IMG/VR virus record: IMGVR_UViG_3300018984_000079
Coordinates: 1 to 47,922 of that record
DNA: 47,922 nucleotides
Direction: 5' to 3' (one strand)
From: a virus
A program made the position numbers and the translations under genes. Under the pieces are notes generated by a model. That model searched no databases. It had not been told where the DNA came from and was given only the letters and a program-made list of their open reading frames with translations. Positions 6,579 through 25,159 of this stretch are shown here, one piece after another. How positions within the stretch are numbered: position 1 is the first letter of the stretch; every line of letters begins with the position of its first letter.

Positions 6579-6612
6579 TCCTTTCCGCCCTAGGATTGAT
6601 TCCCGTATTTCG
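6579..6612 (+). promoter_or_regulatory. Phage late promoter-like element 1
   Basis: TCCTTTCC (6579-6586), then 18 bases, then GTATTTCG (6605-6612). The ATG of the first tail gene follows 15 bases later. It is one of five elements with the same box, the same spacing and a TAnnTTCG-like second box; this copy deviates in the first two bases of the second box. Confidence 0.7.
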
Positions 6613-6627
6613 ATTGAAATTTATGCT

Positions 6628-7131
6628 ATGATCTCCATCCAGATCCCCGTCAAGGCGCACGTATATAAATATCTGACCCGTCAATTCGGGCCGGACATGA
6701 CGCTATCCAGATCCAACTCGGTTGGTTTGTTGCTTATGCATTTACTCAAGCGCAATTCAAATGACAAGCAGTATGACTACGTGACCAAATCTTATGAGAA
6801 TAGCTACACGGTACTGATTCCGAAGCCTTTTGTATTTAATCGCGGCATTCGCTATCTAAGCACGTATTCGGCGATGCAGCTCAACAACTTCGTGGATGAC
6901 CTGATCAAGGAACAGTTTTTCACCTTCATGGAACTCCAGCTATCAGCCGGCATGATACGCCGGGATGCGATCTACAAGTTTCGGGAGCGCTATGGATTCG
7001 GGGAAGACGAGCTAGCCTTCGACACCCTAAAAAAAGCCTTTTATCGACACGAGCGATCACGGCGGACACCGGAGGCTCCATCTAACCCGCTAGGCCATGC
7101 CTCACTCTCTGCTTTCGCTCGCACGGCCTAG
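6628..7131 (+). CDS. Hypothetical phage protein
   Basis: A 167-aa protein, basic and largely helical, with 'VKAHVYKYLTRQFGPDM' near the start and 'YKFRERYGFGEDELAFDTLKKAF' near the end. It resembles small conserved proteins found at module edges of Bacteroidota phages, but I cannot give a function. It is the first gene after late promoter element 1. Its 3' end overlaps the next gene by 35 bases, so the extreme C-terminus, rich in Arg, Pro and Ser, may be loosely constrained. Confidence 0.6.
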   Translation: MISIQIPVKAHVYKYLTRQFGPDMTLSRSNSVGLLLMHLLKRNSNDKQYDYVTKSYENSYTVLIPKPFVFNRGIRYLSTYSAMQLNNFVDDLIKEQFFTFMELQLSAGMIRRDAIYKFRERYGFGEDELAFDTLKKAFYRHERSRRTPEAPSNPLGHASLSAFARTA

Positions 7132-7654
7132 CGGCGACAATCTCGGCGGCCTGCTGGCCCTGCAATTATTCAAAGCCTCGGATGTAGTCAGGCTTGCTGA
7201 TCACGACGGCGTTATTCTGCCTGAGTCCTTACAGATGAGGAGCGGCGTTACCATAGCCGGCATGTATTTCACGCCCGGCACTGCGGCTTTTTCACAGGAC
7301 GCAGCAGAAACGGATCAGGGAGACCTGTACAAGTGGAAGCTTGCCTTCTCAGTTCCCAAACTTGCGCCTGACATTCACTACTGGCTCCAGGCCCAGCGCG
7401 GCTATGATCTCATAGCTATCGTTATGGACGGAAATCGCAACTCGCTGATGATTGGCAATCCCGATTACCCCCTAACGCTAAAGGCTAATCTGGACACGGG
7501 CAATAAACCTTCAGCCAAAAATGACTACGGATTTACTCTTGTCGGCGAAAGCCCCGACCCGGCGCTGTTCTATTTAATGTTCGAATCTGCTTTGCCTCCT
7601 CCGCGCAAGGTGTTTTCGTCTGGATTTTCGTTCGGATTTTTACGCATCCCCTAA
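7097..7654 (+). CDS. Hypothetical phage structural protein
   Basis: A 185-aa protein without membrane segments. It is beta-rich (TIAGMYFTPGTAAFSQ, YGFTLVGESPDPALFY) and has a Phe/Gly/Ser-rich C-terminus, like small tail or fibre-associated proteins. It starts inside the preceding gene and ends one base before the fibre gene start, so it is part of the same operon. A virion role is inferred from the neighbours only. Confidence 0.55.
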   Translation: MPHSLLSLARPSGDNLGGLLALQLFKASDVVRLADHDGVILPESLQMRSGVTIAGMYFTPGTAAFSQDAAETDQGDLYKWKLAFSVPKLAPDIHYWLQAQRGYDLIAIVMDGNRNSLMIGNPDYPLTLKANLDTGNKPSAKNDYGFTLVGESPDPALFYLMFESALPPPRKVFSSGFSFGFLRIP

Positions 7655-7655
7655 T

Positions 7656-9008
7656 ATGGCTCTATCTATCAACGACCTGAAACAGCTATCCCGGCAGCTT
7701 TTCCAAAACAATATTTCCCAGCAGATCGAGCCCGTTCATTTGCGTACGTTTTTTGATGAAGTACTGGAGGCGCTTGCTGAAAACACCACCCCGACAAAGG
7801 AGAACGCCGGCGTGGCAGTCCAGCTGGTCAACGCCCTGCTGGGCGGAGCTGGCAATGATGCAAACACCCTTTTTAAGCTTCGCGGGCTAATCAGCACGCT
7901 GAATAGCCAGGTTGCCGGCAAGGAAAACGCCGGCGTGGCTACCCAGCTGATTGCTGACCTGAAGGGAGACGTGCCAGGCAATCGGGATACGCTTAAAAAG
8001 CTGTCCGACGCCATCGACGGCCTGATATCGGTGGAACGCAATGTAGCGGATATTGCAGCCCGCAATACCCTGTCCGACAAGCGGGACCAGCAGAATGTGT
8101 ACGTGGCCAATGCCAGTGCAGACCCCACCGTTTCGGGCGGATGGGCGATTTATAAGTATATCCTGGCCACTACTTCTTGGATTAAGATTGCTGAAGGAGA
8201 AAGCATCGATGTAGATTTCTCTCAGTACGCCACCAAAACGGCCGGCGAATTGGAAATAGACTACACGCCTTCCGAAAATGATAACGCGAACGGCTTCTTT
8301 GCCGGGCTGCTAACTTCCGGCAAACTAAAAATCAGGGCTGCCCTTAACAAAATCGTGGCAGTACTAAAAACCAAAGCGGATTTGGTCAATGGCAAGGTGC
8401 CGGCATCGCAGCTTCCACCGGTGGCCCCGGCCAGCACTGCCGGGATTCCGGCCTACAACCAGGTAAATGCTTTTTTGATCGGTGAACAGGCACTTTCCGG
8501 TGCGCGATATTGGCAGGCCAAGATCAACATTGCGGCCAACACCCAGAACTCCGCACCCCCTACCGATCCGGGAGTGACCGAGAATACCCATTGGCTGGAA
8601 ATCTCTAGCACGCATCTTCAAAACACCGATACCGCTTTGAAGCGCAGCACTGGCCAGGTTTTAAGCGCCGACATCATTCACGCCGGCATTGTTCCGACTG
8701 TGCTGGCCAGCAGTTTTGGCGGCGGGACCTTGTCGATCAACCTGGACAATGCACGGATTTTTACAATCACCCTAACCGGAAATATCACCGGGTTCACTTT
8801 TACCGGTGGCGTGGCCGACCGCTTCTATTGGGTACGCTTGATTCAGGACACAACGGGTTTTAGAACGATTGACGGCGTCGATGCAAAATTGAAAGTGCGC
8901 CAAAATCGGATATTAAGATTAAGTACAGGACCGGGCGAAATTGATACTCTGGAATTGGAATATATCCACGCCAACCACGTAATCGTACGCCCCGACTATG
9001 CATCTTAA
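7656..9008 (+). CDS. Tail fibre-like protein with repeated N-terminal motif
   Basis: A 450-aa protein. The N-terminal third carries two related segments built around 'KENAGVA(V/T)QL(V/I)' (residues about 46-80 and 86-118), followed by a helical stretch with 'NTLSDKRDQQNVYVANASAD', and a C-terminal beta-rich region with Gly/Thr/Ile alternation (TLTGNITGFTFTGG). This pattern is typical of trimeric phage tail or side fibres, with a helical attachment region and a beta C-terminus. It overlaps the following LamG protein by 11 bases, suggesting coupled synthesis of interacting fibre components. Receptor binding is inferred. Confidence 0.65.
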   Translation: MALSINDLKQLSRQLFQNNISQQIEPVHLRTFFDEVLEALAENTTPTKENAGVAVQLVNALLGGAGNDANTLFKLRGLISTLNSQVAGKENAGVATQLIADLKGDVPGNRDTLKKLSDAIDGLISVERNVADIAARNTLSDKRDQQNVYVANASADPTVSGGWAIYKYILATTSWIKIAEGESIDVDFSQYATKTAGELEIDYTPSENDNANGFFAGLLTSGKLKIRAALNKIVAVLKTKADLVNGKVPASQLPPVAPASTAGIPAYNQVNAFLIGEQALSGARYWQAKINIAANTQNSAPPTDPGVTENTHWLEISSTHLQNTDTALKRSTGQVLSADIIHAGIVPTVLASSFGGGTLSINLDNARIFTITLTGNITGFTFTGGVADRFYWVRLIQDTTGFRTIDGVDAKLKVRQNRILRLSTGPGEIDTLELEYIHANHVIVRPDYAS

Positions 9009-10899
9009 CAGCCAATTGACCGATAACCGGGCGCCGGGCGCCCCTTTAGCGCACTGGTTCGACCGCTACGGGGCAGATATTGCAGGCAGTACGGTATTTG
9101 ATAGCGTAGGCAAACAGGCGCGTCCTATTCAGGTAGGCCGCTGCTATCAATTTTCGGGAAGTCAGTATGTTGACTGCGGAAATATTCCCGCGCTTGAAAT
9201 CCCGTTTTTCATTTTGTCTTTTGTCTTCATAAGAACAGGGCAGACAGAAGGAAAAAATGTTATGTGCATTCAATCAAGCGGCGGAAACAAAGGCATTATA
9301 GTAACTTATAATTCCGTTTTTAGTAATACGCTTTCGTTTCATTTTGGTCCTAATGTAATAACTATTCCAGCTCCTGTTGGTACGCAATTAGAGTGTATAT
9401 TTTATAGAAGTTCAGGTGATATTATACTGATTGCCAACGGCGTAACTTATAGTAGTATCACTATTGGCATGCAATGGGGAGACTCCACGAAGGCAACACT
9501 ATTAGGCGCTTTTCAATTTGCAGGTGCAGCTAACGAACCGATTCAGGGGCAATTGTTTGCCGTTCAATACGCTGTTTTTTCTGAATCCCGGCTGGCTGCT
9601 TTGCAGAAAAATATTTTTGAAATTGTTCCGGGTTGTGAATTTGCTTATAAATGTGACGAACAGGACGGAACGGTGAGCTATGATAGTTCTGGAAATGGAC
9701 GGCATGGTGCAATTATGAATACAGCCATGGCAACTTTTCACGCTACGCAAAACTTATATTCCTACCAAAATCAAGTCGGATATAATAAACCGGGTTCGGT
9801 TTTTATTCCCGGCAATGAAGCTAGTCCAGGTTTTGATGTACTAGGCAATCCCTTACAAAACCGCGGGCGGGTAAAATACAATGGGCGATTAAAAGGAAGC
9901 AATTGCGCTACTTTTTCGGGTAACCAGCACGTCGATTTCGGTACGACCCCAGCGGTTGAAATACCCAATTTTATTGTTTCCTTTTGGGCAAATACGGGAG
10001 AAAGCTTTCCCTATTCTACCCTTGCGTGTATTGCTTATAATGATGATTCGTCAACAGGAAGGGGCGGTTATCGTATTCGCAAAGGTCCCAGCAATAATCT
10101 AATGGTAGACAAAGGCAATGGGGGGGCTATTTTGGCCGAAACCAGTACTATTTTCAACCTCGTAGGGGCTTGGAATCATTTTACAATTGTATATAACAAT
10201 CACGTAGGGCAAATTTATGTTGATAGCGTGGCGGATGGCCCCCCTGTTGTTCTAATGCCTGCCAGTGGGTTAGATTATCCACCGCAAAATGCACCCCGGA
10301 AAACAGCATTAGGCTGCATTTTGGAAGGATTGAATCAGGCATCCCCGCAAAACTATTTTACAGGAGGAATTGCTGGCTTTCAAATTGCCCCCTATTTAGC
10401 TGAGAATTTAGCCAAGGTTTTAGCCAAACAGGATTTAGATAACCCAGTTTTTCACGCCCCCTTGGCAGAAGGGGCCGGGGCAACCTGTTACGATGGCTCC
10501 GTGAACGCACGGCACGGTACGCATTACAACGCAACCCTAGCCACGTGGGGCACTAAGCAGGATAAGTATCATTTCAATTTAATGAAAGGCTTTACGCAGT
10601 CCGGGGCCGTACGAATCCCTGCAAGGGGAAACGGCTTAGATGCGCTAGGAAACGGCTTAACGAATCCGGCATCAAGAGGGCATAACGGGGCCGAAACACT
10701 GGTGGACTTCACGGGCGGGGTCGCCTCTCCCTTTGCGATTCAAAATGCATTGCCCACAGCATTCGCGTTTGGAAACAGCTTTCAAGCAGGGAGTAAATAT
10801 GTAGACTCCTCAAAAACAACCTCTCTAAACAACTTTTTAGTATATCCTCCCCTGACTGTATCTCAGTCATCAAGAGTAAAAAACTTTCTTAAACAATAA
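8998..10899 (+). CDS. LamG-domain tail fibre/host-recognition protein
   Basis: A 633-aa protein with concanavalin-like (LamG/Laminin_G_3) modules. 'FSGSQYVDCGN' at about residue 50 and 'FSGNQHVDFGT' at about residue 305 are equivalent starts of two lectin-like domains. Each is followed by a separate linker module (about residues 214-300 and 484-585) with 'YD(S/G)S.N.RHG' and a 'G.D.LGN.L.N' segment. LamG folds bind glycans, so this is a likely receptor-binding protein on the tail. The third lectin-like part at the C-terminus is shorter. About 290 gene-free bases follow, containing the next promoter element. Confidence 0.75.
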   Translation: MHLNSQLTDNRAPGAPLAHWFDRYGADIAGSTVFDSVGKQARPIQVGRCYQFSGSQYVDCGNIPALEIPFFILSFVFIRTGQTEGKNVMCIQSSGGNKGIIVTYNSVFSNTLSFHFGPNVITIPAPVGTQLECIFYRSSGDIILIANGVTYSSITIGMQWGDSTKATLLGAFQFAGAANEPIQGQLFAVQYAVFSESRLAALQKNIFEIVPGCEFAYKCDEQDGTVSYDSSGNGRHGAIMNTAMATFHATQNLYSYQNQVGYNKPGSVFIPGNEASPGFDVLGNPLQNRGRVKYNGRLKGSNCATFSGNQHVDFGTTPAVEIPNFIVSFWANTGESFPYSTLACIAYNDDSSTGRGGYRIRKGPSNNLMVDKGNGGAILAETSTIFNLVGAWNHFTIVYNNHVGQIYVDSVADGPPVVLMPASGLDYPPQNAPRKTALGCILEGLNQASPQNYFTGGIAGFQIAPYLAENLAKVLAKQDLDNPVFHAPLAEGAGATCYDGSVNARHGTHYNATLATWGTKQDKYHFNLMKGFTQSGAVRIPARGNGLDALGNGLTNPASRGHNGAETLVDFTGGVASPFAIQNALPTAFAFGNSFQAGSKYVDSSKTTSLNNFLVYPPLTVSQSSRVKNFLKQ

Positions 10900-11118
10900 A
10901 TTGAACTAACCTCATACGAGAAGTCAAGGGGAAGGTTAAAAAATATCAACGCTTTTACCGTCCGATTTGTCCCCTGAAAGTGCAATCGAATAATACAAAC
11001 ATACAAAAATAAATTACACCCTTCTTACATTTCTCCCCAATTTATTTTTGGAGGCTTGCTGATACCTTCCACAAACTACTAGGTTTTATTTTTATCCCCT
11101 CTCCACTGACTTACCCAG

Positions 11119-11152
11119 TCCTTTCCGATAGGCCACCCGCCCGATAAGTTTA
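11119..11152 (+). promoter_or_regulatory. Phage late promoter-like element 2
   Basis: TCCTTTCC (11119-11126), 18 bases, then TAAGTTTA (11145-11152). It precedes the protease/capsid block by 36 bases. The 220 bases before it (10900-11118) hold no gene that I can see. Confidence 0.7.
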
Positions 11153-11188
11153 CATTCCGAAACTACGGCATAACGTAATCTCTTTATC

Positions 11189-12529
11189 TTGGCAAAACAT
11201 CGCTTACTTCTTACTGTTTTCCGATCCGCTTGGCTGATCGAGTCTAAGTCAGCCGAATCACTACTCCCGCTGCTGGGACGCTACATGGCCGGAGAGCGGG
11301 TTGCCTTCTTTGATGATGACGAAGAGGAGGAAGCTCCACAACCCTACGCCGTGTGTCGGGTAATGGATCTGGAGAGCAACACCTTTCAGATGAAAAGCTA
11401 TAGCACCTACGATGAGGCGCCGGAAGGATCCATTGCGGTTATTCCTTTTTCGGGTACCATTTTTAAAGAGGACTACTGCGGCACTCCCGGATCGGCCACG
11501 CTTTCGCGCTGGGTGCAGGATGCAGATAACCATCCCAACATTGCCGCGACCATCATTAGCATGGATAGCGGCGGAGGCACAGTAGACGGCACTTTCGAGT
11601 GTGCCGATGCCGTGTTTGCCACTCAGAAGCCACTGGTTTCCTGGATAAATGGTATGGCTTGCAGCGCAGCCTACGGTATTATCAGTGGATCCAACCTGAT
11701 CGTGGCCTGCCACGAAGTAGCTGAAATCGGCTCAATCGGAACGGCTATCAAGGTGATGGACTCTTCGGAGGCGATGACCAAGTACGGCTATAAGCTGCAC
11801 TACGTCACGGCTGACGACTCGAAAGACAAGAATAAGGCTTATTTCGAAATGCTGAAAGGCAATTACGACCTGATCAAGCAGGAAAGCCTCAACCCGACCA
11901 ACGACGTCTTTCTCTCTACTGTAAAACGCAACCGCGAAGGCAAACTTCAGCTTGATAAGAATAATGAACCCCTGACCGGAAAGGTCTATCTGGCTAAAGC
12001 TGCTATTGATAACGGGCTGGTCGATGAGATCGGCACGCTTGAATATGCGATCAGCCGTGCCCAGGAACTGGCTGAATCATCCACTAGTACACCATCCAAA
12101 TCAAATAACATGTTCGGGAACAAATACCCCAAAATGTCGGCGCTCAAAGGCAAAACAGCCGACCAAATCACCCTGGAGGACATCAACCAGGTGAACGAAG
12201 AATTATCTGCCGCCGGCATCGAAGGCATTACAGTAGTAAACGCCCAGGTCATTGAGGCAGCAGAGCAGGCTACCGCTGATCTGACTGCGGCCAACACGAA
12301 GCTGGCTACAGCCACTACGCAGGTAACGCAACTGACCAAGGAGCGTGATGAAGCGCAGGCCCTGGCCGACAAGTACGGCAAGCAATCCGGAGCAGTTCCT
12401 ACCAACCCCAGGCTGGAAGGCCAGGAGAAGCAGGAAACGCTAAACGAGACTTCTCAATCAGTGATTGACAATTTACCTCACAACAAAGCGCTTGACGAAA
12501 ACCCGCTATTCGCCGGCCAAGCCAAGTAA
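11189..12529 (+). CDS. S49 prohead protease fused to scaffold-like C-terminus
   Basis: A 446-aa capsid maturation protease of the SppA/S49 (ClpP-fold) type. Key parts are the 'IPFSGTI' strand (residues 85-91), the oxyanion-hole segment 'MDSGGGTVDG' (125-134), the nucleophile Ser159 in 'NGMACSAAYGI', and a lysine-rich loop 'SKDKNKAYF' near 211-219 that would supply the general-base Lys. Residues from about 320 form an Ala/Thr/Gln-rich coiled coil ('LTAANTKLATATTQVTQLTK'), like a scaffolding domain that the protease removes. The start is a TTG at 11189; the first ATG-type alternative is at residue 33. It lies directly before the capsid gene, as expected. Confidence 0.8.
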   Translation: MAKHRLLLTVFRSAWLIESKSAESLLPLLGRYMAGERVAFFDDDEEEEAPQPYAVCRVMDLESNTFQMKSYSTYDEAPEGSIAVIPFSGTIFKEDYCGTPGSATLSRWVQDADNHPNIAATIISMDSGGGTVDGTFECADAVFATQKPLVSWINGMACSAAYGIISGSNLIVACHEVAEIGSIGTAIKVMDSSEAMTKYGYKLHYVTADDSKDKNKAYFEMLKGNYDLIKQESLNPTNDVFLSTVKRNREGKLQLDKNNEPLTGKVYLAKAAIDNGLVDEIGTLEYAISRAQELAESSTSTPSKSNNMFGNKYPKMSALKGKTADQITLEDINQVNEELSAAGIEGITVVNAQVIEAAEQATADLTAANTKLATATTQVTQLTKERDEAQALADKYGKQSGAVPTNPRLEGQEKQETLNETSQSVIDNLPHNKALDENPLFAGQAK

Positions 12530-12588
12530 TCTCCTTTGATTTAATTTTTAACTCTAGGCAGTCATCCTGCCCTTAAACAATAAGCAAA

Positions 12589-13533: not shown

Positions 13534-13588
13534 GTCTTCCAAAAAGGAACGCTCATCGATCATTCAACATTATTTTCAACTCATCCCC

Positions 13589-13616: not shown

Positions 13617-13633
13617 TCTCACTTACAAGAAAA

Positions 13634-15170: not shown

Positions 15171-15172
15171 GG

Positions 15173-15206
15173 TCCTTTCCATAGCAATTGCCGGCAATTA
15201 CCTTCG
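15173..15206 (+). promoter_or_regulatory. Phage late promoter-like element 3
   Basis: TCCTTTCC (15173-15180), 18 bases, TACCTTCG (15199-15206). The next ATG is only 5 bases further (15212), which would give a leaderless or nearly leaderless mRNA. The spacer contains the palindrome GCAATTGC. Confidence 0.75.
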
Positions 15207-15211
15207 GGTAT

Positions 15212-15805
15212 ATGTCGGCAATTGCTATTTGGCTCCGGTCCGGGCAGAGTTACCCGGAAGGATGCGCGCTCTTCGAAAAACATGGGACGAACGAGCCCCT
15301 AAAACGTCTCCTGAAAACGGGGGAATCGCCTTTTACCCGATCCAAACTGGTAGAGGAACTAACCGCGCTTGTCAGTCAGCCTTCATCTGCTGCTGCGGTC
15401 GTTACCAGGCAAGTAGATCAACCACTTCCGGATGCGGTAAAGCAACTCAACGAGCAACGGGCAAAGCTATTCAAGGAAACCGCCCGGCTGCACGCACAGC
15501 TGCCCTTGCTGGCCACCAATGAGGAACGGCTCCAGCACGCCCTAGTCATTAAGCAGAATTTCAGACTCATCAATCAGTACTGGGCCCAACTGCGGCAATT
15601 CGAGCAAACGGGCCAGCTCCCCGGTGCGCCGGTGCCTTCGGAACCTTTATCCCTGCTGCCCACGGATCCCTTGGAGATGCACGAGCGGCTCAGAAACGTT
15701 CGTACCTACATCTGCAAGCACCGAAACAACCCCAAGCGAGCTGACCACGTGGCCGGCTGGATCACTGAGAGAGACGAACTGGAAAGGAGGCTGCAGAATG
15801 CCTAA
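15212..15805 (+). CDS. Hypothetical protein in terminase operon
   Basis: A 197-aa helical protein from the ATG at 15212; an in-frame TTG at 15188 lies inside the promoter-like element and is less likely. 'IWLRSGQSYPEGCALFEKHG' near the N-terminus resembles a conserved leader of Bacteroidota phage proteins encoded before terminase. The rest is rich in Leu, Gln and Arg with 'LEMHERLRNVRTYICKHRNNP'. It overlaps the next gene by 8 bases. It may be a packaging accessory factor; function unknown. Confidence 0.6.
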   Translation: MSAIAIWLRSGQSYPEGCALFEKHGTNEPLKRLLKTGESPFTRSKLVEELTALVSQPSSAAAVVTRQVDQPLPDAVKQLNEQRAKLFKETARLHAQLPLLATNEERLQHALVIKQNFRLINQYWAQLRQFEQTGQLPGAPVPSEPLSLLPTDPLEMHERLRNVRTYICKHRNNPKRADHVAGWITERDELERRLQNA

Positions 15806-16370
15806 GCAATCGAATAAGTATCAGGAAGTAGATATCTATTTGCTCCACGTCCAGGATCCGGAAGCCCATCCTTTGCCCGAGCACGTCAAAAATCGTGTCG
15901 AGCGCTGGGAGTTTGCCGACAATCTCATTCAGAAGCACGGGATCTGCAAAACCTCCATTCAACTGCACAAACTCAAATTCAGCATCGACCAGGCAACCGT
16001 CTACCGGGATTTCGACAGCGCCATGCAGGTCTTTGGCTCGATTCACCGCAACCAGAAGGATTATATGCGCCACGTGCACCTGCAAAAGGTATACAAGGCG
16101 CTGGATTGGGCAGAAGAGGAAAAAGACATCAAGGCCTACATCCGCGCCGTGGCTGAGCTAAGGAAAAATGCCGGATTTGAGAAGGAAGATATGGAGGTGC
16201 CCGACTGGAGCCGGCTGCAGCCTCCGCAGTGGATTGTGGGCTTCTTTCCGGAGATGCTTAATAATCCGCTTCCCGAGAATTGGGAAAACCAGGTACAGAA
16301 GCTGATCCAGACCAAAAGAAAGAAGGATCTCTCTATTGAAGACGCCCAAATTGTAAACAACGATGAATGA
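15798..16370 (+). CDS. Putative terminase small subunit-like protein
   Basis: A 190-aa protein from the ATG at 15798, overlapping the previous gene by 8 bases and the large terminase by 8. The N-terminal half has 'RVERWEFADNLIQKHG' and 'FSIDQATVYRDFDSAMQVFG', consistent with an HTH that recognises packaging sites; the second half is helical with 'YIRAVAELRKNAGF'. In tailed phages the gene immediately before the large terminase is usually the small subunit that binds pac or cos DNA. That role is inferred from position and the HTH-like region. Confidence 0.6.
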   Translation: MPKQSNKYQEVDIYLLHVQDPEAHPLPEHVKNRVERWEFADNLIQKHGICKTSIQLHKLKFSIDQATVYRDFDSAMQVFGSIHRNQKDYMRHVHLQKVYKALDWAEEEKDIKAYIRAVAELRKNAGFEKEDMEVPDWSRLQPPQWIVGFFPEMLNNPLPENWENQVQKLIQTKRKKDLSIEDAQIVNNDE

Positions 16371-18003
16371 GCCCCAAAAGCTGCATTATAACGTTCCTCA
16401 GCTGCTCTTTCATCTGATCAACTGTTCGATCAACGTTTGTCTCTGGGGACGCGCTACGGGCAAAACTGAAGGCCCCATGGCCTTCTTTACGCTCGATAAC
16501 ATCCACAAGATGCCCCGCTCAAACGGTTTTCTGCTGGGCACCACCTACGAGCAACTGCTGACCCGAACAATACCACCCCTGATTGCTGGCTGGGAAAAGC
16601 TGGGTTACGTGGAAGGCATTCACTTTTTCGTCCGAAAATTCGCTCCTGATTACTATAAATGGGATAAGGCCTATCGTCACCCGCTCAAAGCCGAGCACTA
16701 CATTCATTGGCATAATGGATCCGGTATATACTTAGTTTCTCAAGACAGACCCGGCACGATCAATGGCGTGCGCACCCAATGGGGAGCCGGTGACGAAGCA
16801 AAGTTCCTTAATAAGGAGAAAGTTGATAATGAAACCCTGCTGACGATGGCTGGCCACGCCGACAAGTTCGGTCACCTCTCTAACTACCTTTCCCTGCTAT
16901 TTTGCTCGGATATGCCCACTACCTCCAAAGGCAAGTGGTTGCTGGAGTATCAGAATATGATGGATCCGGAAACGGTAGAGGCCATCCTGATGGTGCAAAG
17001 CCAAATTATCGAGTTACAAGCCCAAATGCAAGCGGCCAGCGAGTTAACCAGGCAAAGGCTACAGCGACGGATCAATCAGTTTCTGGAGTACTTGAATGAG
17101 CTGAGGAAGGAAACGGTATATTTCAGCCTAGCCTCCACGATTGATAATATCCACGCCCTGGGCCTGTCTCCCATCAAGCAGTTTAAGCGCACCCTTTCCG
17201 ACTTAGCTTTCCAGATATCTGTGCTTAATAAGCAAATTCTGGCTATCGAGAATGGCTTCTATGGCCTGCTGAATGAGGACGAGCACGGCTATGAAATGGC
17301 TAATTACAGCTACATCGATAACCTCTATGGTGAAGGGTATCGCAAAGACCTAAAGAAGGATTGTAGGTGGGATGCAGATGTACAGCCCTACGAGCCTTTA
17401 GATATCGCATGTGACTACAACAACGCCATCAACTGCGTATGTGTAGGGCAAGAGAACCACGGCAAGGGGTGGGAGTATCGCCTGCTTAACAGTATGTACG
17501 TACTGCGCCCCTTGCTGCTCAAAGACTGTATTCAGAAGTTCCACGAATACTATAAGCCCCACAAGAGCCGCTATATCAATTACTACTACGATCACACGGC
17601 AATTGCCGGCAATGCATCGACTGACATCTCCTTCTCGGACGAATGGATCGAGGGTCTGACTAACCTGGGCTGGCACGTAACCCCTCACTACATAGGGCAG
17701 GCCCCTTCCCACCATTCCCGCTACCTGCTCTGGAGTAACCTACTGCAGGGACAGGACAGCCGATTACCTCGCTTTGGCTACAACATCACTAATGCCGGTA
17801 GCTGGTCCACTGCTGCCAAGCAGGCCGGGGTGATTAAGAAAGGCGAGTTCTTTGAGAAGGATAAAAGCTCAGAGAAGCAAGGCTCCGGCATTCCACCTCA
17901 GGAGGCCACCCACCAGACCGATGCGGCTGACACCCTTATCTACGCCAAGCTACGTGCAAGGATCGGCAAGGAGACTGAGTTCTTCGATGCCATGGTGATC
18001 TAA
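16363..18003 (+). CDS. terL: Terminase large subunit
   Basis: A 546-aa DNA-packaging motor. The ATPase domain has Walker A 'GRATGKT' (residues 29-35) and a Walker B-like acidic pair Asp144-Glu145 in 'GAGDEAKFL'. The C-terminal RNase H-like nuclease domain shows candidate metal ligands Asp351 ('CDYNNAIN') and Asp410 ('YYYDHTAI'), with a final 'HQTDAADTLIYAKL' acidic segment. A coiled-coil-like insert lies around residues 205-250. The protein uses ATP to translocate DNA into the prohead through the portal and cuts the concatemer. Intact length. The 210 bases after it hold no clear gene. Confidence 0.9.
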   Translation: MNEPQKLHYNVPQLLFHLINCSINVCLWGRATGKTEGPMAFFTLDNIHKMPRSNGFLLGTTYEQLLTRTIPPLIAGWEKLGYVEGIHFFVRKFAPDYYKWDKAYRHPLKAEHYIHWHNGSGIYLVSQDRPGTINGVRTQWGAGDEAKFLNKEKVDNETLLTMAGHADKFGHLSNYLSLLFCSDMPTTSKGKWLLEYQNMMDPETVEAILMVQSQIIELQAQMQAASELTRQRLQRRINQFLEYLNELRKETVYFSLASTIDNIHALGLSPIKQFKRTLSDLAFQISVLNKQILAIENGFYGLLNEDEHGYEMANYSYIDNLYGEGYRKDLKKDCRWDADVQPYEPLDIACDYNNAINCVCVGQENHGKGWEYRLLNSMYVLRPLLLKDCIQKFHEYYKPHKSRYINYYYDHTAIAGNASTDISFSDEWIEGLTNLGWHVTPHYIGQAPSHHSRYLLWSNLLQGQDSRLPRFGYNITNAGSWSTAAKQAGVIKKGEFFEKDKSSEKQGSGIPPQEATHQTDAADTLIYAKLRARIGKETEFFDAMVI

Positions 18004-18676: not shown

Positions 18677-18722
18677 AGAAAGCCTTTTTAGCAAATAAGG
18701 CAAAATATATTTGCATTTCCTG

Positions 18723-18756
18723 TCCTTTCCCACCCTAACTTCCTTCTCTACCTTCA
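18723..18756 (+). promoter_or_regulatory. Phage late promoter-like element 4
   Basis: TCCTTTCC (18723-18730), 18 bases, TACCTTCA (18749-18756). The GTG start of the portal block follows 24 bases later. A separate host-like TATATTTG lies just before it at about 18707. Confidence 0.7.
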
Positions 18757-18780
18757 CTGCCCAACAGTAACGCTTTGCCT

Positions 18781-19095
18781 GTGAACACAATTGCCATAAA
18801 AGAGGTGCTTAGAAAAATGGAGTTACGCAATCATCACGGTAACGCAATTCCCTTTTCCCTTCAGTTCATCACTTGCGATGAGAATCGCCTCACCGGTGGG
18901 GAGATCATTACCGCCGAAGGGGTGATTCTGGCACGTAACAAAAAGCAGAGGGTCCGATCAAAACCAACCCCATCTGGCAGGGCGGCCAACGAGCACGATA
19001 ACGGCACCCGCAACCTATTACTCCCGAACGGGGAGATCAGAAAGTGCCATATGTGGCTCATCGTAAAATTTAACGGTCAAGAAACCCACTTATGA
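18781..19095 (+). CDS. Hypothetical phage protein upstream of portal
   Basis: A 104-aa basic protein from the GTG at 18781 (an in-frame TTG lies two codons upstream). It contains 'GGEIITAEGVILARNKKQR' and 'IRKCHMWLIVKFNGQETHL'. Its stop overlaps the portal start by 4 bases (ATGA), so the two are translationally coupled. Small proteins of this kind before portals are common in Bacteroidota phages; function unknown. Confidence 0.6.
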   Translation: MNTIAIKEVLRKMELRNHHGNAIPFSLQFITCDENRLTGGEIITAEGVILARNKKQRVRSKPTPSGRAANEHDNGTRNLLLPNGEIRKCHMWLIVKFNGQETHL

Positions 19096-20435
19096 GTGTA
19101 CACATATCAGGGGACTTAAATGCTGCCTATTTGGTCGATCACGAGGCATTCGTTTCCCTCTCTTCCGGAAAAACCAAGGCGGGCAAAAAGGAAACGCCGG
19201 GCACCTCGCCCGTCGTCAAGCAGATGGGTGGCGGAAAGATTGCCAAATGGGGCGATAGTAACCTGTTTCCCCAGGAAGTCGTAGCCACCTGTCGCAAAAA
19301 CACGCTCGTTCCCTCGACCTTAGACTGGAAAGCCCGGGCACTCTACGCCGGCGGGCTGATGACCGGAAAAATATCCTACGATTCGGATGGCAACGAGAAA
19401 TTCAAACCGGTTCGTGACCCTGATTTTGAAGCCTTTCGTCGTACGAGCGGATTGCACCTCTACCTGATCGAAGCTATCAAAGATTTTTACTGGTTTTACC
19501 ACGCGTTTCCGGAGTTGGTGCTCTCGGCTGATCGAAAGAAAATCAACTCGATCAGCACGCAGGATGCCCAGTTTTGTCGGTGGGAAATGCAGAATGAAAA
19601 GACGGGCCTGGTTGAAAATTGCTACATCAACGCCAACTGGGAAAGCAACGAGAACGAGGATAGTCCACTTACAAGCAAGGTTCCGGTACTGGATCCGTAC
19701 TACGATCCGGCCACTTTTCTGCAGTACGGCCGCGAATACAAGTACATCTACCCGCTTTCCTACCCCTCCAGCGGGAAGGTATACTACCAGTTAGCCGACT
19801 GGCATTCCATAATCGAATCGGGCTGGCTAGGCTTTGCCAACTACCTGCCCGAATTCAAGCAGGCCCTGATGAAAAACCAGATCACCGTCAAGTATCACAT
19901 CGAGATTGCTGACTGGTACTGGGAGAAGAAGTACGGGCAAGCGTGGGCTTCCTGCCCGCAACCGGTCAAAATGCAGAAAATGGAGGAAGAACTCAAACGC
20001 TTTAATGATATGATGTCGGGAGCGAAAAATGCCGGGAAAGCAATCATGACGATGATGCAGACCGATAAGCAAGGCATTAATCAATTCCCCGGCTGGAAAA
20101 TCACGCCCATCGATGACAAGCTGCAATCCGGCGCCTACATCGAAGACAGCCAGGAGGCCTCTGCCCATTTACTCTACGCCCTGGGCGTGGATGGCACATT
20201 GATCGGCAGCGCACCGGGTAAGAATATGGGCTCGGGTTCCGGCTCTGACAAACGGGAGGCCTTCAATATGTACCTGTCGATGTGCCAGATCCACGCCGAT
20301 ATTATTCTTTCACCTCTATATCTCATCCGCGACTACAACGGCTGGGATCCGGAGTTGGAGTTCAAATTTAAACAGCCTTTCCTGCAAACGCTCGATAAGG
20401 TTTCTCCCAAACAACGCGCAACTACGACCGAATAA
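19092..20435 (+). CDS. Phage portal protein (main prophage)
   Basis: A 447-aa portal. 'GGGKIAKWGDSNLFPQEVV' near residue 50 is the signature shared with the left-hand portal. A wing-like alpha/beta region follows, then a long helical region ('VKMQKMEEELKRFNDMMSGA'), 'YIEDSQEASAHLLYALGVDGTLIG' in two steps, and a Gly/Ser-rich 'SAPGKNMGSGSGSDKREAF' loop preceding a final helix, matching the stem, tunnel-loop and crown order of portals. It forms the DNA channel and contacts terminase and adaptor. It starts in ATGA overlap with the preceding gene and ends one base before the adaptor gene. Confidence 0.85.
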   Translation: MSVHISGDLNAAYLVDHEAFVSLSSGKTKAGKKETPGTSPVVKQMGGGKIAKWGDSNLFPQEVVATCRKNTLVPSTLDWKARALYAGGLMTGKISYDSDGNEKFKPVRDPDFEAFRRTSGLHLYLIEAIKDFYWFYHAFPELVLSADRKKINSISTQDAQFCRWEMQNEKTGLVENCYINANWESNENEDSPLTSKVPVLDPYYDPATFLQYGREYKYIYPLSYPSSGKVYYQLADWHSIIESGWLGFANYLPEFKQALMKNQITVKYHIEIADWYWEKKYGQAWASCPQPVKMQKMEEELKRFNDMMSGAKNAGKAIMTMMQTDKQGINQFPGWKITPIDDKLQSGAYIEDSQEASAHLLYALGVDGTLIGSAPGKNMGSGSGSDKREAFNMYLSMCQIHADIILSPLYLIRDYNGWDPELEFKFKQPFLQTLDKVSPKQRATTTE

Positions 20436-20436
20436 G

Positions 20437-21417
20437 ATGGCTCTTTTCAAAACCACTGAGGAACTGAAGCAATTTGTTCCTGCGACCGTAACATTCGATT
20501 TTGATGCGGTTAATTCCTACATCAAACAGGCGGAGGTAAAATTTCTGATGCCCTACCTGGGCGTCAATCAATTCACGGAACTGCGCGTGGCTTACCAGGC
20601 CAACGCCCTCGCCGGCGCGCAGACCAAGCTGTTGGAACTGGTCCGTACTCCACTGGCCAATTTTGCCTTTGCCCTTTTCGTACCAGTTGGTCAGTTACAG
20701 ATCGCCTCAAGTGGCATCCAGCAGAGCGGCTCCAAAGACAAAAAAACAGCCGCGCAGTGGCAGATTGATGAACTCCAAGCGTCTTTTTTCAACACCGGCT
20801 ACGACTCTATCGACCCGCTGCTGGAATATCTAGAGGAAAACAAAACCTTGTTTCCCGCTTGGGCTGCATCGACTGCCTACACGGTCCTAAAGCAGTTTTT
20901 TATCAATACCGCCAAGCAATTCAGCGAATTCGTCTGGATCAACGAAAGCCGGCGCACTTTCCTGGCCTTACGGGCCCAGATGAAGAAAGTAGAGGAGCTT
21001 GCCATTTTACCCATCATTTGCAAGTCACTTTTCGCTGAGCTGAAAGCCCAGATTCTTTCCGGATCAATCAGTCCAGCTAACCTGGCTCTTTTGGAGCAGA
21101 TTCGTCCGGCGGTGGCACACTTGACTATGGCCCGCGCCATCGACGAGCGCTCCGTGATTCAATCCGAAAACGGCATTCAGGTAGCCAAAAACGCTGGATC
21201 TACCTACACAAAAGGAAAGGAACCAGCTTCCGATGCTCGGCTACAGCGACTCAAATGTCAGGCGCAGGCGGACGGCGAGACCTATCTGGCGCGGATCCGG
21301 GAATTACTGGAGGCAGATCTGACGACCTACCCGCTCTACCGGAACAGCCCTTGCTATCAGTCCAAGGCGCACCGGCTTTATGAAAATGATCCGGATTCAG
21401 GCCTTTATGTTTTTTAA
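20437..21417 (+). CDS. DUF6712-like head-tail adaptor
   Basis: A 326-aa helical protein following the portal. Early residues 'TFDFDAVNSYIKQAEVKFLMPYLG' fit the DUF6712 type seen next to Bacteroidota portals, and the middle has a YLEENKTLFPAW segment typical of this group. A connector function between portal and tail is inferred. The left-hand remnant has a shorter equivalent at 2.1 kb. The C-terminal third is more polar ('RLQRLKCQAQADGETYLARI'). Confidence 0.6.
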   Translation: MALFKTTEELKQFVPATVTFDFDAVNSYIKQAEVKFLMPYLGVNQFTELRVAYQANALAGAQTKLLELVRTPLANFAFALFVPVGQLQIASSGIQQSGSKDKKTAAQWQIDELQASFFNTGYDSIDPLLEYLEENKTLFPAWAASTAYTVLKQFFINTAKQFSEFVWINESRRTFLALRAQMKKVEELAILPIICKSLFAELKAQILSGSISPANLALLEQIRPAVAHLTMARAIDERSVIQSENGIQVAKNAGSTYTKGKEPASDARLQRLKCQAQADGETYLARIRELLEADLTTYPLYRNSPCYQSKAHRLYENDPDSGLYVF

Positions 21418-21431
21418 TCCCACTTATATAT

Positions 21432-21965
21432 ATGAAAACTACACGATTCTTAAAGGCTGTTGAGGACGTTCTGATCCACGAAGGCGGCTACAATAACAGG
21501 GTGACGGATAAAGGCGGGGCAACCAACTGGGGTGTCAGCCTTCGTTTTTTGAAGTTGATCAAAAAGGATCTTAACGGAGACGGCCGCGTTGATTGGCTCG
21601 ACATCAAGGGATTGACTAAGGAAAATGCTGTCGACATTTATTGGCTCAACTTCTGGAGGCCAATCTACGATATGCTTCCGGTCCGGCTGGGTGCAAAGGT
21701 TTTTGATACAGCCGTTAACGCCGGTCACTCCCGCGCCCACGTACTGCTACAGCAATCGCTTAATGCCTTAGGCAGCAAAATCAAAGCTGATGGTTTGGTG
21801 GGCAACGTAACGCTTTCGGAGTGCGCCAAATACCCTGAAACAGCCATTCTGAAGGCGTACTCAATTCAGCAAAAAGCATTCTACGACTCTCTGGTGAAGG
21901 AAGATCCCTCTCAGGAAGAATATATCAGGGGCTGGACCAAACGCGCTAACTGGCTGCCTAAGTAA
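21432..21965 (+). CDS. GH108 N-acetylmuramidase endolysin with EF-hand-like loop
   Basis: A 177-aa endolysin of the glycosyl hydrolase 108 family. The catalytic Glu17 is in 'HEGGYNNRVTDKGGATNWGVS', the hallmark segment of the family, and the C-terminal peptidoglycan-binding part ends in 'GWTKRANWL'. Residues 46-57 (DLNGDGRVDWLD) form a near-perfect EF-hand/dockerin-type calcium loop inserted in the catalytic domain, a feature known in some GH108 enzymes. It cleaves the glycan backbone at lysis. No signal peptide, so it depends on the holin downstream. It is unrelated to the GH24 lysozyme of the left-hand remnant. Confidence 0.88.
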   Translation: MKTTRFLKAVEDVLIHEGGYNNRVTDKGGATNWGVSLRFLKLIKKDLNGDGRVDWLDIKGLTKENAVDIYWLNFWRPIYDMLPVRLGAKVFDTAVNAGHSRAHVLLQQSLNALGSKIKADGLVGNVTLSECAKYPETAILKAYSIQQKAFYDSLVKEDPSQEEYIRGWTKRANWLPK

Positions 21966-22174
21966 TGGATAGAGCTCCTGATTTTGAGCAATTGTACCGG
22001 GCGCTGCTTTATCAACTCAATCATCGCATAAGCGGTCCGGCCTGCTCGATTCAGGGCATTATGAATCTCAACCTGAGTGATCAGGAAAAACTGCAACTGA
22101 TCGCTGCCTGCATGGTTAAGCTGGAAGAGGTAATGAAAGACATTGAGCGGCAACACACAGAACACAATTTATAA
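21965..22174 (+). CDS. Small protein resembling a histidine-kinase dimerisation helix
   Basis: A 69-aa protein whose ATG overlaps the endolysin stop by one base. Residues 16-35 (LYQLNHRISGPACSIQGIMN) resemble the H-box of HisKA domains in Bacteroidota kinases, where the pattern is (F/L)xxHxxRxPxxxIxGLxxL with the phosphorylated His. A second helix (residues about 40-62) would complete the helical hairpin. There is no ATPase or receiver domain. It may be a dimerisation mimic, a kinase decoy or only a coincidental helical protein. Its place in the lysis cassette, before the holin, is unexplained. Confidence 0.6.
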   Translation: MDRAPDFEQLYRALLYQLNHRISGPACSIQGIMNLNLSDQEKLQLIAACMVKLEEVMKDIERQHTEHNL

Positions 22175-22175
22175 G

Positions 22176-22697
22176 ATGCCACAGAGCGATACCCTGCACG
22201 TAATTACCAAAGCTGCCAGCACCATGGCTGAGCCACTCCAGGCCACTTCAGCCGATGGCGTGGTGGCTTTCCTGCAGGCGCACATCTGGCAGGATCCCCG
22301 GGCCATTTACTTTCTATTGATTGCCTACGGAATATCGCTGGCCCTGAAGTGGCATATTGTCTATAATGATGGGAAGCTGACGGCTAAGAAAGGAGGAAAG
22401 GATTTGTTATCATCTATTACTAATATCTCCGGGCTGCTTGTGTTACTGTATTTAGCATCAAACCTGGGTCATTTTATCAGTGCCCTGGCCTGGTTTCCGG
22501 ATTGGGTCTATGGGGCGATTATGCTGAATTTATTTTACAAGGTGACTACCAACCTTTCGCAGTTGGGCTATATCACTCCTGAACTATACAATACTATTGA
22601 GGGAAGGCTTAAAATGTTAAAGAAAAAACATGAAACAGATGATACTGAAGATCCTCCTGCAGGCCAGGAAGACAATATGGACAGCCATAAAGAATAA
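22176..22697 (+). CDS. Putative holin with several membrane segments
   Basis: A 173-aa protein from ATG 22176. It has hydrophobic segments around residues 41-57 and 82-98, plus a further one near 105-125, a basic stretch between them (NDGKLTAKKGGKD), and a charged C-terminal tail rich in Lys, Asp and Glu. This matches the larger holins of Bacteroidota phages, and it follows the endolysin. It would form membrane lesions that release the enzyme. It overlaps the next gene by 68 bases. Confidence 0.65.
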   Translation: MPQSDTLHVITKAASTMAEPLQATSADGVVAFLQAHIWQDPRAIYFLLIAYGISLALKWHIVYNDGKLTAKKGGKDLLSSITNISGLLVLLYLASNLGHFISALAWFPDWVYGAIMLNLFYKVTTNLSQLGYITPELYNTIEGRLKMLKKKHETDDTEDPPAGQEDNMDSHKE

Positions 22698-23088
22698 ATT
22701 AAGCGTTGATTTTGCTAAGGTTGGCACGCATGTTCAAATCGGATTAATGGCTTTGATGACCTTATATGTGATTCTTACGCGTCAGCAGACCGAGCAGGTA
22801 GATGAGAATACCGTCCAAATTAGAGAGGTAACTAGAAAAATCATTCAGTTAAAAGACTCTGTGCGAATCGTTGAGGAGGCTAAAAATGCAAAAATTGATT
22901 CGATACACAAGGAATTCAAGCAGCTGCAGGAAATCACGCTCCGCAACGATAAAGCTGTGACACTAGTTCAAAAGCAAATTGATGCATTGCAAGCGGACCG
23001 TAAAAACGTCGGACCCAAGATCGAAAAATTGACCGACGAGCAAATGGTGCGGTACATGGAAACCCTGAAAATCGAGGAAAAGAAATGA
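22630..23088 (+). CDS. Inner-membrane coiled-coil protein, spanin-like
   Basis: A 152-aa protein: basic N-terminus, one membrane segment (about residues 36-50, 'IGLMALMTLYVIL'), then a long periplasmic-type coiled coil from about residue 52 to 145. This is the layout of Rz-type inner-membrane spanins, which link inner and outer membranes at the end of lysis. It starts inside the holin gene, as Rz genes often nest, and overlaps the next gene by 4 bases. The family is not recognised by sequence; the call rests on topology and context. Confidence 0.6.
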   Translation: MKQMILKILLQARKTIWTAIKNKLSVDFAKVGTHVQIGLMALMTLYVILTRQQTEQVDENTVQIREVTRKIIQLKDSVRIVEEAKNAKIDSIHKEFKQLQEITLRNDKAVTLVQKQIDALQADRKNVGPKIEKLTDEQMVRYMETLKIEEKK

Positions 23089-23594
23089 AACGACTACTAT
23101 TAACACTTGTATGTCTTGCGTTGTTCAAGCTGGTTGCCGCTCAACAAGCCCAAACCAGCCAGCAACCCCAACCAAGTCAAATTGGACCTTCCAAGGCAGA
23201 AGTCAACACCCTCAAGCCGCGCCGCATTATAGTAAATGGGGATACACTATACGCTTATAACCGCACGCAGCAAAATGAGATAGCCCGATTGATTACGGTC
23301 GGAAAAATAGACCTGGAAACACTGGAAAAGCGGGAAATACAGTTGCAGAAAGTTAACAATACAGTTGAGAACCTGCGCAATATGATCTTTTTGCGTGAAG
23401 GGGAAATCCAAGTGCTCCAGGACAAAATTCAGATGCGCGACAACCTGCTTATGAAACAACAGGGCCTGGTATCGCTGCAAAAAGCAGAAATGGAGCGGAA
23501 GGACAAAAAGTTGCAGAAGCAAAGTTTTCAATCCAAGGTTCTCACCTTCCTGGGGATAGCTTTATTGATTATAGTGCTGATTGTCCTGTTATGA
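23085..23594 (+). CDS. Exported coiled-coil protein with C-terminal membrane anchor
   Basis: A 169-aa protein with an N-terminal signal peptide (MKRLLLTLVCLALFKLVAAQ), a Gln/Pro-rich linker, a coiled coil (about residues 65-150) and a C-terminal membrane segment (about 152-169). A signal sequence followed by a periplasmic coiled coil and a terminal anchor is reminiscent of unimolecular spanins, though the classical lipobox is absent. It overlaps both neighbours by 4 bases (ATGA), so the whole lysis cassette is translated as a unit. The exact role is uncertain. Confidence 0.6.
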   Translation: MKRLLLTLVCLALFKLVAAQQAQTSQQPQPSQIGPSKAEVNTLKPRRIIVNGDTLYAYNRTQQNEIARLITVGKIDLETLEKREIQLQKVNNTVENLRNMIFLREGEIQVLQDKIQMRDNLLMKQQGLVSLQKAEMERKDKKLQKQSFQSKVLTFLGIALLIIVLIVLL

Positions 23595-24409
23595 ACGGCG
23601 TATACATAGGAAAACGTTTTTACCCCGTTCCTAACACTTACAATGCACTTTCCCCGCGACAGCTGAAAGAAATTGCCGGCATCCTTCACGCCGAAATACC
23701 GCTTCCGGAAGCGCGGATCCGACTCTTACTTTCCCTGCTCAACGTGCCCAGATCCCTGCGCTTGCAGTGGCATTTCCTATTCAACATTTCGGATGAAAGT
23801 AGGTTCGATATGGAGTTACTGGCCGACTGGATACTGGAGGGAGCCAACAACCTTACCCGGCAATTACTACCGGTAGTTAAGATAGGCCTCAAAAAACTTT
23901 ACGGTCCGGCGGACGAGCTGGCAAATTTGTCTTTCGTGGAATTCATTAAGGCAGAATCGGCTTACATCGCTTACGCCAAAACACGCGATCCGGAAGCACT
24001 CAACTTGCTCGTGGCTATCCTTTACCGTCCTAAGCGAAAGGATTACAGTCCACAAAGCCCCGACTTCGATGGCGATATTCGGGAGAAGTACAACGATCAC
24101 TTGGTGGGTGACCGCGTGAAGTTGGTCAGCCGCTTGCCTTTGTCTACCAGGCAGGCGATCTTTTTGTTTTACGACGGTTGCCGAGCCCTGATCCTGAAGC
24201 AATACCCAAACGTTTTCCGGAAGCCCAAAGATGATGATGCCAAAGGCCGGGGCTGGGGTCACGTGCTCCGGAATCTGGCTGGTTCGGTGAATGAATACGA
24301 ACGGACGGCCTTTCAGCCGCTCGGCACTGTGCTTAGCGATTTGGACATGGCCATCCAGGAGAGTGACGAAATGCAGGAAAAATTAGAGGAACTTAAAAAC
24401 AAGCATTAG
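23591..24409 (+). CDS. Hypothetical phage protein
   Basis: A 272-aa soluble helical protein, ATGA-coupled to the gene before it. It begins 'MNGVYIGKRFYPVPNTYNAL' and contains 'RLPLSTRQAIFLFYDGCRALI' and a C-terminal acidic helix. It sits between the spanin-like genes and the small lipoprotein. The size and position before the tail completion gene would fit a tail-assembly factor, but I do not recognise it. Confidence 0.55.
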   Translation: MNGVYIGKRFYPVPNTYNALSPRQLKEIAGILHAEIPLPEARIRLLLSLLNVPRSLRLQWHFLFNISDESRFDMELLADWILEGANNLTRQLLPVVKIGLKKLYGPADELANLSFVEFIKAESAYIAYAKTRDPEALNLLVAILYRPKRKDYSPQSPDFDGDIREKYNDHLVGDRVKLVSRLPLSTRQAIFLFYDGCRALILKQYPNVFRKPKDDDAKGRGWGHVLRNLAGSVNEYERTAFQPLGTVLSDLDMAIQESDEMQEKLEELKNKH

Positions 24410-24415
24410 GAAGCT

Positions 24416-24604
24416 ATGAGAAAATTTACAGCATTTACAGTAATGTTAGGGATAATGCTGTTTGGTTGCGAACGCCGTTTCACTTCGCCCAACAGAAATA
24501 AAAATAAATACGAATCAGCAGCTAAGAGAGCCGCCCAGCAGACCGACAGCAGCATTTATTTCCCAAAACAGAAACCGTTTATTACCAAAATGTCAACCCA
24601 TTAG
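24416..24604 (+). CDS. Small lipoprotein, possible outer-membrane spanin
   Basis: A 62-aa protein with a basic N-terminus, a hydrophobic stretch and a lipobox 'LFGC' (lipidated Cys18), followed by a polar, Arg/Lys/Asn-rich tail. Small lipoproteins in phage lysis regions are typically outer-membrane (Rz1-type) spanins that partner an inner-membrane coiled-coil protein such as the one at 22.6 kb. Here the mature part lacks the usual proline richness and the gene is separated from its would-be partner by 1.3 kb, so this is tentative. Confidence 0.6.
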   Translation: MRKFTAFTVMLGIMLFGCERRFTSPNRNKNKYESAAKRAAQQTDSSIYFPKQKPFITKMSTH

Positions 24605-25113
24605 TGGAACTGCAAGCCTACACAGACTATTTTCTGGATGTCGCCACGCGATTGAAAGATATTGGCCATACGGAAGCCAAAGAGCGGTTTACGCGCTTTA
24701 ATATTGAGGAGGTCTTTAGCGGTTTGCGCTCCAAAATCGATCTCAACAACTTCTGTCTCTGCCTGGAGAGTTTCGAGGGTAGCCTGAGCGCTAACAATGC
24801 AAACCAGGTCTTTGATAATAATATCGGCGCTTTCGTGATTGTCAAGAATTGCCAAATCGACAATTTCGTGATGGAAACCCAGATCTGCGATCAGGCCAAA
24901 AAGATCGGCCTGAAAGTGGTAGCCAAAATGGTATATGATGTCGAACTTCGCTACAAAGGTCTGGTACCGGTGGCGCTGAAGAATTTCGATATCAGCTCGG
25001 TGCAGTACGAAAAAGTGGGACCCGTTTTTGACAATTGTTTTGGGTATCGCTTCACATTCCTTACTTACGACTCGCTGACCCTGGTCCACAACCCGAACGA
25101 CTACCTGGTGTAA
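24604..25113 (+). CDS. Tail completion/terminator-like protein
   Basis: A 169-aa protein from GTG 24604, overlapping the lipoprotein stop by one base. It has alternating alpha and beta segments ('NNFCLCLESFEGSLSANNAN', 'GAFVIVKNCQID') and ends in 'YDSLTLVHNPNDYL'. Similar-sized proteins preceding the HK97-gp10-like and tape measure genes are commonly tail terminators that cap the tail tube. This is inferred from position and length. It is the last gene of the block driven by late element 4. Confidence 0.5.
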   Translation: MELQAYTDYFLDVATRLKDIGHTEAKERFTRFNIEEVFSGLRSKIDLNNFCLCLESFEGSLSANNANQVFDNNIGAFVIVKNCQIDNFVMETQICDQAKKIGLKVVAKMVYDVELRYKGLVPVALKNFDISSVQYEKVGPVFDNCFGYRFTFLTYDSLTLVHNPNDYLV

Positions 25114-25125
25114 GCGTTTTTCTTG

Positions 25126-25159
25126 TCCTTTCTCAACCCCGCCCTGCCTGTTAGTTTCG
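25126..25159 (+). promoter_or_regulatory. Phage late promoter-like element 5
   Basis: TCCTTTCT (25126-25133), 18 bases, TAGTTTCG (25152-25159). The ATG of the tail block follows 17 bases later. Confidence 0.75.

Follow-up and report, generated by a model that had tools for sequence, protein, structure and literature searches.

What are the short two-part sequences that recur before gene blocks of the viral record IMGVR_UViG_3300018984_000079, and what reads them? The window analysed here is the whole of this IMG/VR record, 47,922 bases long, and an earlier note on it had described five copies of a putative late promoter, in which an 8-base box is followed by exactly 18 bases and then by a second 8-base box. 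On the sequence evidence assembled below, these sites are quite probably the late promoters of a temperate Bacteroidota siphophage, read by a phage activator (most likely the protein encoded at 6628-7131, here called the 6628 protein) together with the primary sigma factor of the host.

All five copies (first boxes at 6579, 11119, 15173, 18723 and 25126) were found, with 18 bases between the two parts each time. The pattern TCCTTTC[CT]-N18-TA..TT, where N18 stands for any 18 bases, matched exactly at the last four positions on the plus strand and nowhere on the minus strand, in comparison to 0.013 matches expected per strand from 300 first-order shuffles of the window; spacings from 10 to 29 other than 18 gave at most one match each. 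In the 6579 copy the second box is GTATTTCG, without the TA, which makes two mismatches to the pattern. TCCTTTC by itself occurred 15 times against 9.6 expected and was not clearly enriched. The signal is the pair at fixed spacing, not TCCTTTC alone. As the earlier note had proposed, each copy lies directly before one late block, namely the fibres (with the 6628 gene first), protease-capsid, terminase, portal-endolysin and tape measure-tail blocks (Table 1). A weight matrix trained on other phages gave the site before the tape measure block the top score in the window. The matrix built from relatives had also learned GC-rich Hymenobacter spacers and did not separate all five sites from shuffled sequence, so the explicit pattern and orthology were relied on.

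Two close relatives, G1 (IMGVR 3300049048_000158) and G2 (3300039306_000022), have terminases about 90 % identical to that of the window and late regions with 77-80 % DNA identity to it. Both keep all five sites at orthologous places. The 6579 copy is considered genuine because its orthologues in G1 and G2 combine GTCCTTTC with a canonical TTTG at the same spacing. GTCCTTTC was unchanged in 15 of 15 sites of the three phages. Invariant columns amounted to 40 of 40 in box 1, 90 % in box 2, 47 % in the spacer and 18 % upstream, and the bases of box 2 were T in 12/15, A in 12/15, TT in 15/15 and G in 9/15 sites. The first box of the earlier note is present, but it starts at least one base earlier (GTCCTTTC here, TGTCCTTT family-wide) and its last base is free.

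An alignment of portal proteins was used to fetch 96 further loci, with portals 29-49 % identical, from Hymenobacter, Pontibacter, Rufibacter, Pricia, Tenacibaculum, a Sphingobacteriaceae metagenome-assembled genome (MAG) and metagenomes; their hosts span Cytophagales, Flavobacteriales and Sphingobacteriales. When the motif was not used at all, TGTCCTTT was the top strand-biased noncoding 8-mer of these loci, with 159 occurrences on the portal strand and 7 on the other. Alignment of 122 TGTCCTTT sites on box 1 only let box 2 emerge de novo as [CT]AnYTTTG, its start exactly 28 bases past the T of TGTCC as in the window, and TGTCCTTTT was likewise found exactly 28 bases ahead of YAnnTTTG (Y, C or T) in the portal-relative loci. 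Family-wide, box 2 has A in 92 %, TT in 98-100 % and G in 84 % of these sites; relative to the consensus TAnnTTCG proposed earlier, the first base is C or T. The pattern GTCC[TA]TT-N21-A..TT occurred 238 times on the late strand and 9 times on the other, with about 3 matches at other spacings. A chance repeat is ruled out by the shuffles of the window and by the strand and spacing counts in these loci and in the protein-anchored loci described below.

The sites stand before late blocks in 21 of the 24 genomes compared, and in the cultivated phages Leef_1 (Polaribacter) and Ingeline_1 (Cellulophaga) they precede the portal, tape measure and capsid blocks. The box 1 variants TGTCCTTT, TGTCCTAT, TGTCTTTT and TGTCGTTT share an equal spacing, one base shorter for TGTCGTTT, and loci that appeared motif-free at first look use TGTCCTATT, TGTCTTTT or TGTCGTTTC, with the spacing unchanged or almost so. 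What is seen is several copies in one orientation, each before a late block and absent elsewhere, as befits a late regulon. The phage-specific late regulon of the earlier note is strongly supported by strand, spacing, late-block position, conservation between phages that lack DNA similarity and restriction to prophages in host genomes.

According to published 5'-end maps, the -7 box of Bacteroidota covers -12 to -5 (PMC9723704), and the consensus of the primary sigma factor is quoted as -33 TTTG / -7 TAnnTTTG (PMC7366714). On this ruler box 1 falls at about -40 to -33, and +1 at offset 40. Among the 122 sites, offset 40 is an A in 63 %, and a pyrimidine stands at -1 in 80 %. ATG starts exactly at offset 40 in 44 of them (L022-L117) and at any other offset in 13 at most, which speaks for the predicted start and points to leaderless transcripts for many late genes of Bacteroidota phages. 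Judged by its bases and position, box 2 is the standard sigma-A -7 element of Bacteroidota, as the earlier note had thought, while the -33 region fits less clearly: the TTT of box 1 occupies the -33 place, the next base is T or C, and conservation reaches TGTCC. Box 1 would replace or extend the TTTG -33 box. A hairpin and a T-tract precede many sites (mean energy -11.5 vs -6.1 in shuffled sequence; at least four Ts in 54 %), so that terminators may lie right against the promoter of the following block.

Which protein could read box 1 was approached through gene content, compared among 24 phages. Apart from the virion and packaging genes, which were universal, a single small gene formed a universal family: 6628-7131, which was found in 24 of 24 (by phmmer in 21, with a profile in the other three) and lies at the early/late junction. 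Its homologue in Leef_1 is gp39. The protein comprises an N-terminal 'IPVKxHVxKYL' part and a C-terminal three-helix domain (residues 79-146) resembling a helix-turn-helix (HTH). Scans of 12-20 members against Pfam, PHROGs and NCBIfam gave no credible match to the family, nor was there a match to profiles of the Mor/C, RinA, ArpU, Ltr or LuxR families. The full-length model, with a predicted local distance difference test score (pLDDT) of 82, shows a long C-terminal helix and, after it, two helices arranged as an HTH, and the isolated C-terminal domain was modelled as three helices with a pLDDT of 87. PDB neighbours were few overall and mostly DNA-binding domains; the weak neighbours of the C-terminal domain include the DNA-binding TnpE, Mu transposase I-beta domain and StbA (root-mean-square deviation 1.6-2.9, E above 1).

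The earlier note had sought the binding protein among the early HTH proteins (34.3 kb). This found no support because G1 lacks those genes and yet has the same promoters; the HTH genes of the early region at 33.3 and 40.9 kb, kept in G2 at most and not in G1, were rejected as activators too. The 6628-7131 gene is a better candidate. Of the two possibilities left side by side in the note, an activator or an altered sigma specificity, the former is favoured since box 2 is an ordinary sigma-A -7 element and sigma-70 regions 2 and 4 (PF04542, PF04545) scored above the cut-off in 0 of 18 family records, the controls being detected. A phage sigma factor is unlikely on the same grounds.

The linkage between motif and protein was followed in both directions. 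The motif DNA alone, searched against viral contigs, gave at least 120 stretches and the reversed motif 120. Among the matches listed, the 6628 protein was encoded in 7 of 120 motif stretches, always on the same strand and just upstream, and in 0 of 120 stretches of the reversed-motif control. An initial alignment of the 6628 family was too heterogeneous to scan contigs with; a protein-only search of 205 genomes from the host family found the protein in 47. In 40 stretches (728 kb) around the protein, 100 motif sites were counted at or after the position of its promoter on the same strand, with none on the other strand and none further upstream; spacing N21 gave 95 matches and any other spacing 3 or fewer. 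About 16 of the 40 stretches, many of them Hymenobacteraceae prophages, carry a copy 50-95 bases before the matched 6628 gene itself, as the window does. The earlier note had considered that the pattern might occur at similar density in host sequence. A strict search of ten whole host genomes found it mostly in prophages: 31 of 40 matches, compared by hand, lay within 40 kb of a 6628 gene on the same strand, and the other 9 are to be set against 5 matches of the reversed pattern. The motif is, as far as these genomes go, nearly restricted to the late blocks of phages that carry the 6628 gene.

A host regulator or a host extracytoplasmic function (ECF) sigma factor could also read box 1 at such late promoters, the 6628 protein acting otherwise at the junction. 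Box 2 is a -7 box of host type, Bacteroidota hosts have many ECF sigma factors (PMC7366714), and DNA binding by the 6628 protein is so far suggested by its modelled fold. This explanation is nevertheless unlikely, as the motif is nearly confined to 6628-carrying prophages in the ten genomes and one box serves hosts of three orders. Moreover, three host genomes each contain two prophages, one with TGTCCTTT boxes and one with TGTCCTAT, whose 6628 proteins differ in the recognition-helix region; a host regulator is disfavoured because such co-resident prophages pair different box 1 variants with their own protein type.

It is rather unlikely that another phage protein, either LuxR-type or a conserved late-region protein of unknown function, is the activator and that 6628 is linked to the motif by position. 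LuxR-type genes are present in Leef_1, Ingeline_1, laban6-1 and others, but this family occurs in only 8 of the 24 genomes and is absent from the window, G1, G2 and G3, and the LuxR-type gene was rejected on that count. Several genes of unknown function are nearly universal, but the remaining ones lie inside terminase or head-tail operons. In its early half G1 differs almost completely from the early half of the window, with almost no early gene shared, yet G1 keeps the 6628 gene and all five promoters.

Box 1 could also be a phage-typical -33 element of strong constitutive sigma-A promoters that need no dedicated activator, since its TTT stands at -33, about 19-20 bases from the -7 box, as does the TTTG consensus (PMC7366714). 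This is quite improbable: the constraint reaches at least 5 bases upstream (TGTCC), the G of TTTG is replaced by T or C, host chromosomes have almost no copies of the full motif outside their prophages, and late genes that were always on would harm a lysogen. That the boxes are packaging, recombination or RNA-processing sites is very improbable, for although their position at block boundaries, often right after a T-tract and hairpin, would suit other punctuation, box 2 agrees with the Bacteroidota -7 element at each position, the sites always point toward the late genes and an ATG often stands exactly at the predicted start.

Several observations weigh against activation by the 6628 protein. 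Its PDB fold matches are all weak, with E above 1, so that its DNA binding is putative. In the window the gene follows its own predicted late promoter, and the genes further upstream are on the minus strand; other near-universal late genes of unknown function exist (e.g. 15188, 24604). The box variants cluster on the protein tree (4 changes), but the portal tree is nearly as good (5 changes), and co-variation alone is therefore no proof of recognition. Flavobacterium phages 6H (L240) and laban6-1 (L241), G026 and several prophage loci encode a 6628-family protein and have no recognisable box variant.

With these points taken into account, we infer that the sites start transcription, that the 6628 protein binds box 1 and that it activates. 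Box 2 (YAnnTTYG) would be read as an ordinary -7 element by the primary sigma factor of the host, and box 1 (TGTCCTTT), in the -33 place, would be the binding site of the activator. This activator, most likely the 167-amino-acid 6628 protein made at the early-to-late transition, would recruit or remodel the host RNA polymerase at all late promoters simultaneously, and the 6579 copy would also boost its own synthesis. Positive autoregulation through a site of the 6579 type is plausible in the window and in about 40 % of the sampled prophage loci.

It seems likely that the 6628 family is a new family of late activators with a promoter class of its own, in which TGTC-NNN-TT at about -40 to -33 is combined with a sigma-A -7 element. 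Both would extend over phages of three Bacteroidota orders or more, the box variants (CTT, CTA, TTT, GTT) would each go with a type of the protein, and many late mRNAs would be leaderless. No such late promoter or activator was found described for Bacteroidota phages in the open-access literature, a scope that leaves most subscription journals and preprints outside. If the proposal is true, late operons could be recognised from sequence in a major group of phages from gut, soil and sea, a gene family now without annotation would gain a function, and Bacteroidota, for which genetic tools are few, would gain orthogonal pairs of promoter and activator.

Table 1. Predicted late promoters and selected genes of the window (TSS, transcription start site; ORF, open reading frame)
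Feature	Coordinates	Strand	Elements or evidence	Context	Orthologues
Late promoter 1 (predicted)	6578..6612	+	GTCCTTTC 6578-6585, N19, GTATTTCG 6605-6612; predicted TSS ~6617	before candidate activator and fibre block	G1:11076, G2:1724
Late promoter 2 (predicted)	11118..11152	+	GTCCTTTC-N19-TAAGTTTA; predicted TSS ~11157	before head maturation protease and capsid block	G1:19037, G2:6469
Late promoter 3 (predicted)	15172..15206	+	GTCCTTTC-N19-TACCTTCG; predicted TSS ~15211	before terminase block	G1:23159, G2:10532
Late promoter 4 (predicted)	18722..18756	+	GTCCTTTC-N19-TACCTTCA; predicted TSS ~18761	before portal, adaptor, endolysin block	G1:26853, G2:14169
Late promoter 5 (predicted)	25125..25159	+	GTCCTTTC-N19-TAGTTTCG; predicted TSS ~25164	before 25177-25584, tape measure, tail genes	G1:33254, G2:20633
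Candidate late activator, family F6628, 167 amino acids	6628..7131	+	motif linkage, fold model	early/late junction	
Head maturation protease	11189..12529	+	PHROG 53, E 2e-55	first long ORF past promoter 2	
Terminase large subunit	16363..18003	+	PHROG 2, E 4e-5	promoter 3 block	
Portal protein	19092..20435	+	PHROG 11226, E 3e-7	promoter 4 block	
Tape measure protein	25588..29475	+	PHROG 25337, E 1e-69	promoter 5 block	

At promoter 3, a 13-base inverted repeat (ATAGCAATTGCCG...CGGCAATTGCTAT, 15181-15228) embraces the -7 box and is largely kept in G1 and G2. Palindromes of the GGCAATTGCC type also occur in the spacers of other late promoters (e.g. L025, L033).

The terminase of the window is 53 % identical to that of phage Mea-Yong924-1, and its portal shares 36 % identity with the protein annotated as portal in Polaribacter phage Leef_1. 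Mea-Yong924-1 (L003 / MZ447863.1), listed as a 'Microcystis' phage, has two late promoters of the type described here and a 6628-family protein very close to one in a Sphingobacteriaceae MAG (L117); its true host may be a Bacteroidota companion of Microcystis.

Beside the late region, the minus strand (4744-6444) encodes a serine recombinase (4744-5346), of a family also present in G1, G2, G4 and other relatives, and a Schlafen/AlbA_2-domain protein (5350-6444). Within positions 1-4700, another portal-like gene (567-1781, PF04860) is accompanied by genes for a DUF6712-like protein and for a phage lysozyme (3105-3536). These genes lie outside the region common to G2, whose contig starts near the equivalent of 4754, and are possibly the remnant of a neighbouring prophage. 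A tRNA-Met (CAT) gene lies at 39841-39916 within the early region, and a similar stretch of G2 has 84 % DNA identity.

Compared with known systems, the sites resemble the sigma-ABfr/sigma-A promoters of Bacteroidota in box 2, in its distance to the predicted start and in the TTT at -33. They differ in the TGTCC extension, the rigid spacing, a C or T as first base of the -7 box and the confinement to phage late blocks. In the middle promoters of T4, read with MotA/AsiA, a phage box replaces the -35 element at a fixed spacing to a host-type -10 box. The arrangement proposed here would work in a like manner, although the box differs and the family scans run gave no MotA/AsiA match to the candidate.

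In P2, a single activator of the Ogr/Delta type serves several late operons and is partly autoregulated, Ogr being a zinc-finger protein that acts near -55. The one-activator scheme with autoregulation proposed here is alike, but neither the Ogr zinc finger nor the -55 site has a counterpart here. The RinA/ArpU/Ltr regulators of Firmicutes phages are encoded by a small gene at the early/late junction and are needed for late genes. Apart from the absence of a Pfam, PHROG or NCBIfam match, the difference is that 4-6 dispersed late promoters are found here against mainly one there. The late regulator Ltr is the subject of PMC13123087.

C and Mor, the late and middle activators of phage Mu, provide the case of one phage HTH activator that acts near the -35 region of several late promoters. 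The sites for Mu C are found upstream of the -35 element of Escherichia coli promoters or overlapping it (PMC4461284), whereas here box 1 is at the -33 region itself and there is no sequence match. In the profile scans described above the known activator families gave no match to the 6628 protein, and by analogy it would work like Mu C, T4 MotA or the RinA/ArpU regulators.

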